This document shows, one piece after another, positions 12,908 to 58,426 of a DNA stretch of 59,605 nucleotides. Below the pieces are notes generated by a model, which saw only the letters and a program-made list of their open reading frames with translations, made no database searches and had not been told where the DNA came from. The position numbers and the translations under genes are program-made. Numbering within the stretch: the stretch's first letter is position 1; each line of letters starts with the position of its first letter. The stretch is taken from contig JAFEFC010000028.1 of the NCBI GenBank assembly GCA_018240785.1, positions 1-59,605 of the forward strand, read 5' to 3'. This DNA comes from Pseudomonadota bacterium. Lineage in GTDB: Bacteria; Pseudomonadota; Gammaproteobacteria; Burkholderiales; Rhodocyclaceae.

Positions 12908-13195
12908 TTGGTCAGCTACTACATCTACTACCGCGTCCGAACCGACATTTCGCGCGCGATCGCGGTCGCCGCCATAGGCAGGCTGCAGGCGGCGCTGACA
13001 CACCGCGCCGGCGTGACCGGGCGCCTGCTGCAGCGGGACGACGATCCCCAGACGTGGATGGAAATCTACGACAACGTCAGTGACGCCGCCGCCTTCGACG
13101 CGGCCCTGCGCGAGGAAGTCGAGGCTGCGCGCATCACCAGCCTGCTGGCTGACGACGGCAAACGCCATGTGGAGCGCTTCGTTTCATGTGCCTGA
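12908..13195 (+). CDS. DUF4936 family protein
   Basis: The most likely start is a TTG at 12908 preceded by GGAAGG at 9 nt, giving 95 residues beginning with the conserved (M)VSYYIYYRV. A ferredoxin-like alpha/beta pattern with TWMEIYDNV and a C-terminal HVERFVSCA fits DUF4936, a small family of unknown function seen beside NRDE genes in betaproteobacteria. The 3' end overlaps the NRDE start by 10 bp, supporting coupled translation. Confidence 0.8.
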   Translation: MVSYYIYYRVRTDISRAIAVAAIGRLQAALTHRAGVTGRLLQRDDDPQTWMEIYDNVSDAAAFDAALREEVEAARITSLLADDGKRHVERFVSCA

Positions 13196-36833: not shown

Positions 36834-37066
36834 GGCGAACCTCCAATGGATGAGATCGGAGGGCGCCTGCTCCTGGAGGGCAAACCCTCCTGGGACGATA
36901 GGAATGGAACGGGTGACGAGCGGGCATCCACCACCGCAAATGCAGTGGTTGTTCGCGGCAACGGATGCGATGCGAACGGGTTTCGATCAACGCGGACCCG
37001 CCGCGCCGTAGCCTTGAGGATCGATGGCTACCTGGGCATGTCACCGGCACCGCCGGTGGGCATGTC
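36834..37066 (-). promoter_or_regulatory. Structured 5' leader of radC (candidate radC RNA motif)
   Basis: Reading on the minus strand there are, in order: a hairpin with CCGGC/GCCGG inner stem, a GTAGCC/GGCTAC hairpin, a CGCGG/CCGCG hairpin, and, 42 bp before the ATG, a perfect GGAGGG/CCCTCC hairpin (36875-36890) adjacent to TCGTCCCA. The first ~56 bp are nearly identical to 57924-57978 with compensatory changes in the stem. The known radC RNA motif occurs in the 5' leaders of radC, methyltransferase and anti-restriction genes of mobile elements. The leader overlaps the 3' end of the thioredoxin-like gene. Confidence 0.55.
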
Positions 37067-37771
37067 TTCGGAATGGGCAGGTTCGGCAACGGTCGTACCG
37101 CTGGCGGCGAGCAGGTCGATGGCCGACAGCAAGGCATCACCTTCGACAGGCCCGTGCAGCAGGAGGGTCTTGCCGGTCTCGCGGTCGCGCAGTTGCAAGG
37201 CCGGTGTGGCCGCGATGCCCTGCTCCGCGGCTTCCACCGCCTGAGCACGGATGACGGCATCGGGGCGATCGCTCTCGAGACAGCCCTGCATGGCTGGCGT
37301 GAGCTCGGGATAGTGCAGGCTCGCCGGCACACCCTGCCCGTCGCCACGGGTGTTCGCGTAGAGCCACGCCACGGCCTGCCAGAACGTGGTATGTCCCCCC
37401 GTCTCGCCCGCGCACTCCGCCAGGCGTGCCCCGGCCGTCGCGGCCGGCTCGTGCACGGACAGCGGCAGGTGATGCCACTGCCAGTACACCTCGGGATGGG
37501 CGTCGATCCAGCGCTTGAGCGCGGGGAAGTAGGCCCGGCAGTGCGGACACTCCAGGTCGGCGTACCCGATCAACGTGAAGCGCGCATCGGCACGGCCATA
37601 CAGCCAGGGCGGGCCGGCCGGTTTCGGCGCTTCGGACCCGGCGGCGGCCAGGGGCATGGAATCGGTTGCCGGATGCGGCGCGCGCAACAGCATCCACGAG
37701 GCCACTGCAATCGTCGCCACGATCAGCAGACCGATCCGGGGATGACGGAGGGCGAAGGAAGGCATGCGCAT
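37028..37771 (-). CDS. Exported DsbA/DsbG-like thioredoxin-fold protein
   Basis: From the ATG at 37771 the product is 247 residues with a membrane anchor or signal (IGLLIVATIAVASWMLL). The thioredoxin active site CPHC is at residues 75-78 in GYADLECPHCRAYFPALKRW, and a cis-proline-region IAATPALQL follows. It probably forms or isomerises disulfides in the many cysteine-rich exported transfer proteins. It begins 13 bp after the VirB4-like ATPase stop. Its last codons (DMPTGGAGDMPR) lie in the radC leader hairpin. Confidence 0.87.
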   Translation of the reverse strand: MRMPSFALRHPRIGLLIVATIAVASWMLLRAPHPATDSMPLAAAGSEAPKPAGPPWLYGRADARFTLIGYADLECPHCRAYFPALKRWIDAHPEVYWQWHHLPLSVHEPAATAGARLAECAGETGGHTTFWQAVAWLYANTRGDGQGVPASLHYPELTPAMQGCLESDRPDAVIRAQAVEAAEQGIAATPALQLRDRETGKTLLLHGPVEGDALLSAIDLLAASGTTVAEPAHSEDMPTGGAGDMPR

Positions 37772-50435: not shown

Positions 50436-51086
50436 CTATCGCTCAGGCACCGTCAGGCGGCGGACCTCGTCGCCGTGTCGGAAGACGGCACCGCCGTCCT
50501 CCATCACTTCGAGCCGCCAGCCGGCCTCGGTTTCACCGGCTCGCAGCAGACGGGCCTGGGCCAGCGCAGCCGCATCGGCAGGCAGGATCGACAGGAAGCG
50601 TTCGCCGGCTCGCAGCTCGACGCCGATCACCCGGAACGAAGGCTCAACATGCCGAGGCCTTGCCGGTGCGCGTACGGGTGGACGGGAAGCAGCCGTCGGT
50701 GCCGACCGGACGGTGGCAAGGCGCACTTCCAGCCGGTCGATGCGGGTCTGCAAGGACTGCAGATCAATGGTTGGCCTATCGTCGACTGCCTGTTCGAGCG
50801 CTTCTAGCCGTTGATCCAGCGCCACGCGCTCGGATTCATAGCGTCCCAAGGGCAGTGCAGCCGGCTCTTGCCGTTGCTGCTCGATCTCGCGGGCGAGTTC
50901 GGCCAGTTGTGCCTCCAACTCGGAGAGCTGCGTGGCAGGCACGGCATCTTCGGTCCTATCGGCTCGTGTCGACAGGATGACGTGGTCGATCACGACTACC
51001 GCGCTGATGAGCAGCAGCCAGGTGGCCGCGGCCACGCGCAACAGGGTGGTGCGATGCGACCGTTCGGTCTGAGCCGTCGTCATCAT
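50436..51086 (-). CDS. Membrane-anchored coiled-coil protein of the transfer operon
   Basis: The 216-residue protein has one N-terminal transmembrane segment (TLLRVAAATWLLLISAVVVIDHVIL). A coiled coil of about 80 residues follows (ATQLSELEAQLAELAREIEQQRQE ... LQSLQTRIDRLEVRL), then a C-terminal domain with PSFRVIGVELRAGERFLSILP. It is coupled to pilL by a 4-bp overlap. I do not recognise a named family; this position in related ICEs has an uncharacterised protein. Confidence 0.78.
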   Translation of the reverse strand: MMTTAQTERSHRTTLLRVAAATWLLLISAVVVIDHVILSTRADRTEDAVPATQLSELEAQLAELAREIEQQRQEPAALPLGRYESERVALDQRLEALEQAVDDRPTIDLQSLQTRIDRLEVRLATVRSAPTAASRPPVRAPARPRHVEPSFRVIGVELRAGERFLSILPADAAALAQARLLRAGETEAGWRLEVMEDGGAVFRHGDEVRRLTVPER

Positions 51087-51658
51087 GGCTGCACCGCCTC
51101 AGCAAGCGGGAGGGTCGCGGCAGGGTTATCGGCATTTCCGACGGGAGAAGGGATTGCTCCGGCCGGCTCGGCAGGGATCGTGGCCGACGTGAAGCACACC
51201 ACGCGAGCCCCCTCCTCTACGTGCAAGCTCCAGGCCGGACCGGCGAGGGTCAACAGTGCATCGCGCAACACCATTGGCCCGATCCGGTAGTGCGCCGCCG
51301 GCAGCGGGAGGGCGTCCAGGGCATCGGTTTCGGGGCCGCTACAGAGCCGGTAGCCGGAGCGCCGGAGCACATGGTTCAGCGCGTCGCCCACCGTCGCTTG
51401 CACGATGTCGGGCAGGCTCACCTCGATCACCTGCAGCAGCAGATCCCGCTGCGCCTCCGTCGGCTCGAGTTCGACCAGGGTGTAGCGGCCGTAGCGGACA
51501 ACCGGGATGTATTGCGGTGGGGAGATTGCAGGTTCGACCGCACCGGATGAATCGGCTGGCGTTGAGGACGGCGCGGTCGTCGCGCAGCCGGCCACCAGGG
51601 AGGCGGCCAGCGCCAGGCAAGCGCAGGCTGTTCGGCAATACGGGCGGGTTGATGGCAT
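51083..51658 (-). CDS. pilL: PilL N-terminal domain lipoprotein
   Basis: The 191-residue protein has a lipoprotein signal (CACLALAASLVAGC, lipobox VAGC). The PilL N-terminal domain follows: IPVVRYGRYTLVELEPTEAQRDLLLQVIEVSLPDIVQATVGDALNHVLRRSGYRLC, which resembles TcpQ-like secretin partners. In PFGI-1-class ICEs pilL heads the transfer operon, as here. No other type IVb pilus genes (pilN-pilV) are visible in the window. Confidence 0.87.
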   Translation of the reverse strand: MPSTRPYCRTACACLALAASLVAGCATTAPSSTPADSSGAVEPAISPPQYIPVVRYGRYTLVELEPTEAQRDLLLQVIEVSLPDIVQATVGDALNHVLRRSGYRLCSGPETDALDALPLPAAHYRIGPMVLRDALLTLAGPAWSLHVEEGARVVCFTSATIPAEPAGAIPSPVGNADNPAATLPLAEAVQP

Positions 51659-51832
51659 GGATCGGCTCGCTGCGATGCGGAGCCGACACCATCGCCATCC
51701 TGGGATGACACATCAGCAAACAAAGGGAATCGCCGCCTTGCCGATTCCTGGGGCAACGGGCTGCCTGCTGATCAAAAATGCGTCACGGCGCCCAGATGCC
51801 TGAGCGCCGGGCGGTGGCCGAGTTATCGAGAG

Positions 51833-51859
51833 GGTTATCCACAGCATTTGTGGATAACC
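51833..51859. promoter_or_regulatory. Palindrome of two DnaA-box-like sequences
   Basis: An 11-bp perfect inverted repeat (GGTTATCCACA and its complement) is separated by GCATT. Each arm contains TTATCCACA, an exact match to the DnaA-box consensus TTATNCACA. It lies 175 bp upstream of pilL and 51 bp before the CRISPR-like repeat. It could be part of an ICE replication origin, a DnaA-responsive operator, or another regulator's site. Confidence 0.6.
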
Positions 51860-51909
51860 GAAGGGAACTGTCAGGCGACACACGTACCGGCCTGGGGTCG
51901 AGTGGGCGG

Positions 51910-51941
51910 GTCGCGCCCCGCGTGGGCGCGTGGGTTGAAAC
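51910..51941 (+). CRISPR. Solitary type I-C-like CRISPR repeat unit
   Basis: The 32-nt sequence has the type I-C repeat layout: it begins GTCGCGCCCCGCGTGGG and ends GCGTGGGTTGAAAC. The stem is CGCGCCC/GGGCGCG around a CGCGT loop, followed by the 11-nt 3' handle ending TTGAAAC. Type I-C repeats usually end GGATTGAAAC, so one base of the handle differs. No complete second repeat follows. GTCG recurs exactly 34 nt later (51976), but no further similarity is clear. No cas gene is in the window. Confidence 0.65.
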
Positions 51942-52108
51942 TTTTCTACCGCATCGACCGCAAGCAATGGCGCGCGTCGGTAGCCAACCTTCCGGCAACG
52001 ACTGCGCATGTCATGAAGGCGGCCTTACAAACCCTCGCACTTCGGGTAGTGAGCAGGCGGTCGGCGAGCGATACCATTTTTCTGAGCCTTGATAGCCCGA
52101 GTTCCGTC

Positions 52109-52438
52109 ATGCCTTCGAAAACTGCTCTGATCCGTCTCATGCTTGCTGCACTGCTTGTCTCCCCAGCCACGAGCTCGGCCGACGACTTCCGCTCGCCAGG
52201 CGACAAACGCTGGTGGAAGGGTGAATGGAAAGAAGTGTACTGGGATGGGCCTTGTCAGGTGAAATCGGAGTCAAAGCGCGGCGAGTTCAAGCGTGAGATC
52301 AAATGCAAGGACGGCATCGGTGCCGATTGGCGTGGCGAGTGGAAAGATGAGTACTGGGATGGGCCATGCCTCGTGAAGCAGGACGTCAAGCGCGACGAGT
52401 TCAAGGAGGAGGTGAAGTGTGAGCGGCGCCATCAGTAG
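52109..52438 (+). CDS. Small exported protein with duplicated GEWK..YWDGPC motif
   Basis: The ATG at 52109 gives 109 residues. A signal peptide (MPSKTALIRLMLAALLVSPATSSA) is cleaved before DDFRSPGDKRWW. The mature part is two copies of a ~35-residue unit, G-EWK-(E/D)-(V/E)-YWDGPC-x-VK-x5-KR-x-EFK-x-E-(I/V)-KC, each with two cysteines. It is very rich in Lys, Glu and Trp. I do not recognise a family. It is the only gene between the two CRISPR-like elements, and the spacer of the second shares 10 nt with this gene (52362-52371). Confidence 0.72.
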   Translation: MPSKTALIRLMLAALLVSPATSSADDFRSPGDKRWWKGEWKEVYWDGPCQVKSESKRGEFKREIKCKDGIGADWRGEWKDEYWDGPCLVKQDVKRDEFKEEVKCERRHQ

Positions 52439-52519
52439 TCATCAATGCAGTTTCATGGAGTTCCCGTAGCCAAGCGCGAACGGCTCTCGCCCTCCATAGC
52501 GACCCACAGGTGACAGCGC

Positions 52520-52626
52520 GTCGCGCCCCGCGTGGGCGCGTCGGTTGCGTGGGTTGAAACGGCCATGCCTTGCGCGTGAAACATCAAATCGCCGGTCGCG
52601 CGCCCAGTGGGCGCCTGACCTTTCTG
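52520..52626 (+). CRISPR. CRISPR-like mini-array: repeat, 34-nt spacer, degenerate repeat
   Basis: The first unit (52520-52560) equals the repeat at 51910 except for a 9-nt insertion (TCGGTTGCG) before TGGGTTGAAAC. A 34-nt spacer (52561-52594), the normal type I-C length, follows. At 52595 there is a degenerate repeat starting GTCGCGCGCCCAGTGGGCGC. This keeps 19 of the first 23 bases and a 6-bp stem but loses the 3' handle, as terminal repeats of arrays do. There is no further repeat and no cas gene. Confidence 0.6.
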
Positions 52627-52698
52627 GCTCCGCACACTCGGACAGTCGCAATGTCCCGGATCGTCAGCCGGGTGCGCTACCAACGCCGACACTCCCGT

Positions 52699-53013
52699 TC
52701 AGGCGGCTTTCTTGAGGACGGCTGCCGGCACCGGGGCAACAGCCACTCGGTCCCGCAACTCCTTACCCGACTTGAAATGCGGCACGTATTTCCCGGGGAC
52801 ATGCACCGATTCGCCAGACTTCGGGTTGCGGCCCATGCGCGGCGGCCGGTAGTTCAGCGAAAAGCTGCCGAAGCCGCGAATCTCAATTCGACCGCCATGG
52901 GTGAGCGCATCGGTCATTGCGCCGAGGACCATCCTCACCGCCTCTTCCGCATCCCGTGCGACAAGCCGGGGAAAGCGCTGCGCGAGACGGTCGATGAGTT
53001 CTGATTTCGTCAT
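52699..53013 (-). CDS. ihfB: Integration host factor subunit beta-like protein
   Basis: The 104-residue protein matches IHF-beta: [60 protein letters not shown] with the DNA-intercalating proline in GRNPKSG, and [20 protein letters not shown] short extra tail ([12 protein letters not shown]) is unlike the chromosomal form. An ICE-borne copy could help ICE recombination, oriT function or host regulation. It is expressed apart from its neighbours from a nearby -10. Confidence 0.92.
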
Positions 53014-57801: not shown

Positions 57802-57980
57802 GGTGTTGTCCTCGAAGGAATCGGGGACAGCACGGCCCGCCGGGGCAGTTGCTGCCCCAGGGGTGGACGAAAGCGCCGCAAGCGGCATGGCGAAGAGAAG
57901 GATCTGTGCGTCGCAACGCACCATAGCCTTGAAGATCCTGGCTACCTGGGCATGTTGTCGGCATCGCCGACGGACATGGG
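57802..57980 (-). promoter_or_regulatory. Long structured leader (second copy of the radC-type leader)
   Basis: On the minus strand are, in order: an outer CATGT/ACATG and inner TCGGC/GCCGA hairpin (57951-57978), a GTAGCC/GGCTAT hairpin, a GTGCGT/ACGCAC hairpin, and a perfect 7-bp GGGGCAG/CTGCCCC hairpin (57842-57858) next to TCGTCCACCCC. The first part is almost identical to 37009-37065 with compensatory base changes. This architecture, 5' of a gene in a methyltransferase cassette, fits the radC RNA motif. Confidence 0.55.
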
Positions 57981-58426
57981 GGCAGATTGCTTCAGGCGAT
58001 CAATGGGCCGAAGCGAAAAACCGCCTCGCGGTGTGCCCTTGTTTGGCTGCCTGGCGACAATGCCCTGAGGAGGGCGTCGGCCATCGATACCGTCGATCCG
58101 GTTCGCTGCAGCGAGGTTCGGCAACCCGGGTGAGACCTAGCGGCCGCAAGGATTGGGCAGGTGCGAATGGCCGACAAGCGATCGGGGACCGGTCGGTCGG
58201 CTGTGATGGCCATGGGTCAAGTCGTCGGCCAGTTCAGCCATCCGGGCTACAGCGCCACTATCCAGATGGGATGACCGCTTGCGCGGTTCACCGACTTCCG
58301 CTAGCGACCCATTGCTGACGTCGGTGCCGCCGGAAAGCTGTCGCTCACCGTCAAAAAACACCGGCCTCCCCCGGCCGAAAGCGCATCCTTCTGCCCGGCC
58401 GGTGATTTGGTAAACTGGGCAAAACG
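57981..58426. other. 446-bp stretch without a gene
   Basis: No coding sequence is convincing here. It likely holds the promoter of the 57145-57801 cassette (minus strand) and, at its right end, the terminator of the small gene at 58427-58741. Confidence 0.5.
58353..58377 (-). terminator. Intrinsic terminator after the 104-residue secreted protein
   Basis: On the minus strand CGGCC pairs with GGCCG around GGGGGA, then GTG and a run of six T (plus-strand A-run 58353-58358). It lies about 50 bp after the stop of the gene at 58427-58741. Confidence 0.65.

Follow-up and report, generated by a model that had tools for sequence, protein, structure and literature searches.

Orphan array remnants are characterized by few altered repeats, a truncated end and the absence of cas genes. 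The locus described here shares these traits, but differs from such remnants in possessing one perfect repeat, in its location on an ICE and in the presence of a gene between the repeats. It lies within contig C20 of a 4.71-Mb genome, and "the window" denotes the whole 59,605-nt stretch of this contig that was analysed.

Repeat units have been surveyed in prophages, plasmids and IMG/VR viruses (PMC10651486). In the available part of that report, 82.9% of prophage repeat units occur in a host with the matching CRISPR subtype, candidate RNA anti-CRISPRs (Racrs) are chosen by a promoter within 250 bp upstream, and RacrIC1 inhibits type I-C systems (Camara-Wilpert et al. 2023, PMC10651486). As with RacrIC1, the repeat is of type I-C, belongs to a mobile element and occurs in a host that has a type I-C system. 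RacrIC1, as presented there, is located 11 nt downstream of acrIC5 on one transcript, whereas the scans here revealed no promoter and there is no evident acr neighbour. The locus further differs in having two full repeats plus a partial third and in being carried by an ICE. Viral mini-arrays, as described in the accessible part of PMC11656645, also resemble the locus in having few spacers, host-like repeats and no adjoining cas genes. Their repeats are identical to those of the host, whereas the intact repeat in the window differs at 2 of 32 positions, and most of their spacers target related viruses, whereas the spacer here has no target found (PMC11656645). We conclude that the locus probably derives from a type I-C array, a piece of which was captured and now lies within a PFGI-1-class ICE.

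Repeat units and spacer

The initial annotation described a two-unit array beginning at position 52520. Both units are real, but an intact repeat 610 nt upstream, separated from them by one ORF, was missed. This repeat (GTCGCGCCCCGCGTGGGCGCGTGGGTTGAAAC; 51910..51941, forward strand) has the 32-nt length, the stem and the TGG(A/G)TTGAAAC handle of type I-C repeats, and is near-identical to an array that stands beside type I-C cas genes. The second type I-C repeat (52520..52560, forward strand) is 41 nt long, with GTCGCGCCCCGCGTGGGCGCGT at 52520-52541 and GGGTTGAAAC at 52551-52560. The 9-nt insertion reported for this unit lies before the handle end and repeats GCGTGGGTT in tandem, apart from one mismatch (GCGTCGGTT/GCGTGGGTT). 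The adjoining spacer (52561..52594, forward strand) is exactly 34 nt, as first stated. The third repeat (52595..52614, forward strand) comprises only the 5′ 20 nt, which agree at 17/20 positions, and is cut at the junction with the ICE backbone. It had been drawn to 52626 as a terminal unit that keeps its stem. The 20 nt stand, but backbone begins at 52614 in 5 of 11 related loci and the hairpin pairs are shifted. Its handle was thought to be lost in the manner of a 3′ terminal repeat; instead, the edge of an insert truncates the repeat and so removes the handle. The idea of a working minimal array suffers accordingly, as the spacer is not enclosed by two complete repeats, the upstream one having 9 extra nt and the downstream one no handle.

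The cluster exceeds chance expectation. With up to 3 mismatches, the 20-nt half repeat has three matches in the window, all within the repeat cluster, against 0.24 expected, and none of 100 shuffles of the window reached three. The 14-nt handle end is not above chance at the same tolerance (7 matches in the window vs 5.5 expected), and only the two exact matches fall inside the cluster. A general repeat finder applied to 52200-53000 did not list the 52520/52595 pair, and Rfam identified no CRISPR family at gathering score over the window.

Predicted folding does not discriminate among these units. The canonical stem is still possible in the 52520 repeat. Depending on the flanks given, its pair probability ranges from 0.08 to 0.88 in the two full ICE repeats and from 0.0 to 0.75 in two host repeats. 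The full repeats fold no better than shuffles (z = -0.62 and 0.03). Only the third repeat does (z = -2.89), through a stable hairpin of shifted pairs; the probability of its canonical pairs is 0.0.

The type I-C system of the host

A search of the host for type I-C cas genes and arrays was successful. Contig C33 contains a complete-looking type I-C locus with seven cas genes (Cas3, Cas5c, Cas8c, Cas7, Cas4, Cas1c and Cas2), all over the NCBIfam cut-off, though the Cas3 helicase model only just (104.8 vs 102.45 bits). The array that follows these genes has 55 identical repeats (GTCGCGCCCCTCGTGGGCGCGTGGATTGAAAC) and a 56th that is cut by an IS end. The contig stops soon after this end, so the array may be longer. 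Cas5c, the one family tested across the genome, was found only on C33, and to this extent the earlier description of the ICE units as lacking cas genes stands.

The intact ICE repeat is identical to the host repeat at 30 of 32 positions and to the array repeat of another species in the genus (G008, L013) at 31 of 32. Homologous type I-C repeats therefore exist in relatives, and the agreement with the host repeat, together with the C33 cas genes, upholds the view that the ICE carries type I-C units within a type I-C host. The 30/32 match also makes it plausible that the host Cas5c could process the intact ICE repeat. A comparison by eye of the host array's leader with the ICE flank showed no similarity. 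Of the 54 assembled host spacers, none matches the window with up to 7 substitutions, a result that is compatible with inhibition of the system and provides no evidence for it.

The carrier ICE and the edges of the insert

The carrier is a PFGI-1-class ICE with a MobH/TraI relaxase, TraD, PilL2 and TIGR037xx conjugation proteins. The repeats and a small-protein gene are contained in an insert of ~748 bp (51866-52613; G+C 61% vs 66% for the window), flanked on the left by pilL2 (51083..51658, reverse strand; TIGR03748) and on the right by a gene for an HU-like DNA-binding protein (52699..53013, reverse strand; PF00216). The edges were placed by comparison with 11 loci, defined as HU-side matches of at least 82% among the matches listed from a 395-genome family sample; matches of 80% and below were taken as chromosomal HU genes and left out. 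In five of the 11 (L085, L086, L087, L089 and L090) the backbone match breaks off at 51865 and begins again at 52614. For the nearest locus (L088, 93% on the pilL2 side) the corresponding positions are 51862 and 52627, and in four more distant loci (L091, L092, L093 and L095) the match ends at 51860-51861 and picks up again at 52699-52733. In L094 the alignment covers the HU side alone; the other 10 loci have both flanks. The right edge of the insert cuts the third repeat after its stem, and backbone resumes there.

No repeat was detected at up to 9/32 mismatches in any of the 11 family loci among the matches listed (2.2-3.4 kb each), while the window's own locus, scanned as a positive control, shows both full repeats. 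Nor was a repeat detected in five named loci with a related pilL2 (L037-L041; two from Thauera and one each from Cognatazoarcus, Aromatoleum and Hydrogenophaga), which may share species with some genomes of the family sample; L012 and L090 are one genome. The repeats thus belong to an insert seen in no relative examined, and the conservation of layout in related ICEs that the initial annotation looked for is absent from these 11 family and five named loci.

Two other features of the ICE were noted. A palindrome of two halves (TTATCCACAGcattTGTGGATAA, 51835-51857) stands beside the insert and is partly kept in five relatives; its halves are DnaA-box-like, presumably. Two radC RNA motifs (RF01754) are located on the reverse strand in or near the ICE, at 36924-37074 and 57851-57988.

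IS21-family ends

Three nucleotides inside the left edge of the insert, a 13-nt sequence (TGTCAGGCGACAC; 51869..51881, forward strand) matches the left terminus of IS21-family elements. The same 13 nt make up the terminus on C33, and they recur in L114 and L116 at left ends that adjoin annotated istA/istB. The 13-mer is weak evidence alone and could be due to chance, as 15 of 100 window shuffles hold a match with no more than one mismatch; its place at the edge of the insert speaks for it. The insert shows neither a target-site duplication nor a clear second IS21 end. A candidate right end, CGCCTGAC at the right edge, overlaps backbone that is common to relatives.

The same IS21-family terminus cuts into type I-C repeats in two species: in the host array, at the final repeat assembled (G000:C33 near 212980), and in a repeat of G001 (C7; L015 2840-2885). 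Among 29 genomes of the genus, 13 IS21 ends were found, 2 of which have type I-C repeats within the stretch compared. A degraded IS21-family copy also lies, by eye, beside two type I-E-like repeats on G000:C23 (L045 1500-1690).

These edges suggest how a fragment may have reached the ICE. An IS21-linked rearrangement could have transferred part of a donor array, and since both full ICE copies have G in the handle, the donor repeats would presumably have read GTCGCGCCCCGCGTGGGCGCGTGGGTTGAAAC. Probably no selected function keeps the fragment. Taken together, the features of a fragment (an insert absent from the relatives examined, an IS end, a cut repeat, a duplication and the lack of a credible target) carry more weight than those of a working mini-array.

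Spacer targets

In a functional mini-array, the 52520 repeat and the 34-nt spacer would yield a crRNA with which host Cas proteins are directed at a competing element. The spacer length fits the host, whose spacers are 33-37 nt long and exactly 34 nt in 14 of 54 cases. No phage match was obtained, and the 19 plasmid matches are at chance level, the best being 24 nt at E = 0.9. Eighteen of the 19 fall on Providencia plasmids (20/21 nt at E = 3), in traN wherever the feature is named, a location that would suit a rival conjugative element; the plasmid matches miss the first 12 nt of the spacer. An exact 22-mer core of the spacer is absent from IMG/VR. Within its own genome the spacer matches three places besides itself (20 nt, 3 mismatches) against one for the reversed control, and none of the three is preceded by TTC, the type I-C PAM. 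Nothing credible emerged from the collected comparison loci at up to 12/33 mismatches, and the 35 nt that follow the intact repeat yield no credible target among plasmids and phages. Hence the competitor targeting envisaged at the outset gained no credible protospacer from these collections, which are incomplete. Given also the 9 extra nt in one repeat and the missing handle of the other, we regard an active mini-array as quite improbable.

Type I-C repeats on viral contigs

IMG/VR was scanned for the 16-nt repeat end, giving 22 loci for the G form and 93 stretches for the A form, 80 of them listed; the comparison set comprises 101 loci, including L069 and L070. The 16-mer occurs once in 88 of these, twice in 7 and three times or more in 6. 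A stem matching at 6 of 7 positions is found at the expected place in 47 of the 101 loci, of which 43 were scored solitary, 1 a pair and 3 arrays. Fewer repeats are truly solitary than this score implies: arrays (L117, L135 and L151) are among the 54 loci left out, an additional unit, altered or cut, is present in L047, L049, L163 and L185, and L123 and L131 are on one contig. Single type I-C repeats are nevertheless frequent on viral contigs, in agreement with published solitary repeat units and Racrs. The A to G change in the handle was considered as a mark of repeats on mobile elements and was dropped, because the A form is also mostly scored solitary (39 solitary and 2 arrays for A, 4 solitary and 1 array for G, plus 1 mixed pair).

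Two-unit arrays with a 34-nt spacer exist on viral contigs (L047, L054, L163 and L185, the last at a contig end). The nearest parallel to the window is L163, in which a repeat, 34 nt and a stem-only repeat are accompanied by another repeat 578 nt away. This independent occurrence of the layout keeps the mini-array idea alive, and a similar unit with a second repeat on a viral contig also counts against a simple array fragment in the window. In L054, two different type I-C repeats are 34 nt apart (13096-13193), and by our own reading the spacer resembles a tRNA gene at its 3′ end. Exact type I-C repeats frame short open frames at L131 358-986 and L163 1026-1635.

The gene between the repeats

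The ORF between the two full repeats (52109..52438, forward strand) encodes 109 aa with what we read as a signal-peptide-like start, and the product is apparently small and secreted. It contains an internal duplication (two 86-nt copies, 74%) and no Pfam family above the cut-off. Relatives occur in 4 of 394 other family genomes, two of them at 83% (G357) and 77% (G351); these two homologues stand at other places with no type I-C repeats adjoining. More distant relatives (39-45% identity) were identified in 9 of 398 other genomes sampled from the order. Across the stretches compared, none of the 13 loci with relatives of the ORF, which differ in location from the window, has type I-C repeats at up to 9 or 10/32 mismatches; in L033, one 14-mer resembles the handle at 2 mismatches. 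Two Variovorax replicons gave DNA and protein matches, and L031, the one scanned, is without repeats. The IMG/VR search, which reaches close relatives only, confirmed no relative.

The position of this ORF raises the idea of a gene cassette bounded by repeats, in which recombination, or the activity of Cas1-Cas2 at the repeats, would leave single genes of mobile elements flanked by CRISPR repeats. The window pair, 610 nt apart round one ORF, is similar in spacing to the viral pairs (597 nt in L131 and 578 nt in L163). However, the cases are few, the repeats of a fourth pair (L174) are separated by 1874 nt, the repeat copies differ in their flanks and the open frames are mechanical calls. We know of no mechanism for such cassettes, and consider this origin very unlikely indeed.

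Discussion

An alternative to a captured fragment is a Racr. In that case the repeat at 51910-51941 would be transcribed, then bound and cut by Cas5c, and Cas subunits would be tied up in a dead complex, protecting the ICE. The intact repeat is perfect, lies on a mobile element and is of the host's subtype, as a Racr would be, and this counts against a simple fragment. The close match to the repeat of a type I-C host, the frequency of single type I-C repeats on viral contigs (88 of 101 loci bear the 16-nt end once) and RacrIC1 as a published inhibitor of type I-C (in the part of PMC10651486 available) all favour the idea. Measured against a solitary repeat unit, the subtype is that of the host, but the intact repeat is not a single copy, as another full one and a partial one are present. 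Furthermore, no such unit is present in the related ICEs examined, and the edges of the insert are fragment-like. The neighbouring ORF offers little help, since its signal-peptide-like start makes a cytoplasmic Acr unlikely. The region 51640-52720, which reaches 270 bp upstream of the intact repeat, holds no promoter-like site in either of two scans with a simple sigma-70 consensus (0.1 and 0.2 expected), other promoter types being outside these scans; this is weak evidence because almost nothing is expected in GC-rich sequence. Overall, a Racr at this locus appears unlikely. A variant in which the Racr was made from a captured fragment on the integrated ICE, soon after capture, with the intact repeat kept while its neighbours decay, strikes us as equally doubtful.

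A captured array fragment remains our preferred interpretation. One difficulty is that a donor array was not found, the exact intact repeat being present in just 1 of 395 family genomes, the host itself. Such a fragment need not be inert. If transcribed, the intact repeat should be bound and cut by the host Cas5c, so that it could act passively as a decoy even if the locus never evolved for that role.

As a plain array fragment, the insert would be ordinary. If Racrs arise from repeats captured by mobile elements, the insert would be an example of the first step, whether it works or not. It is the defined edges, the absence from the relatives examined and the matching host system that would make it such an example.
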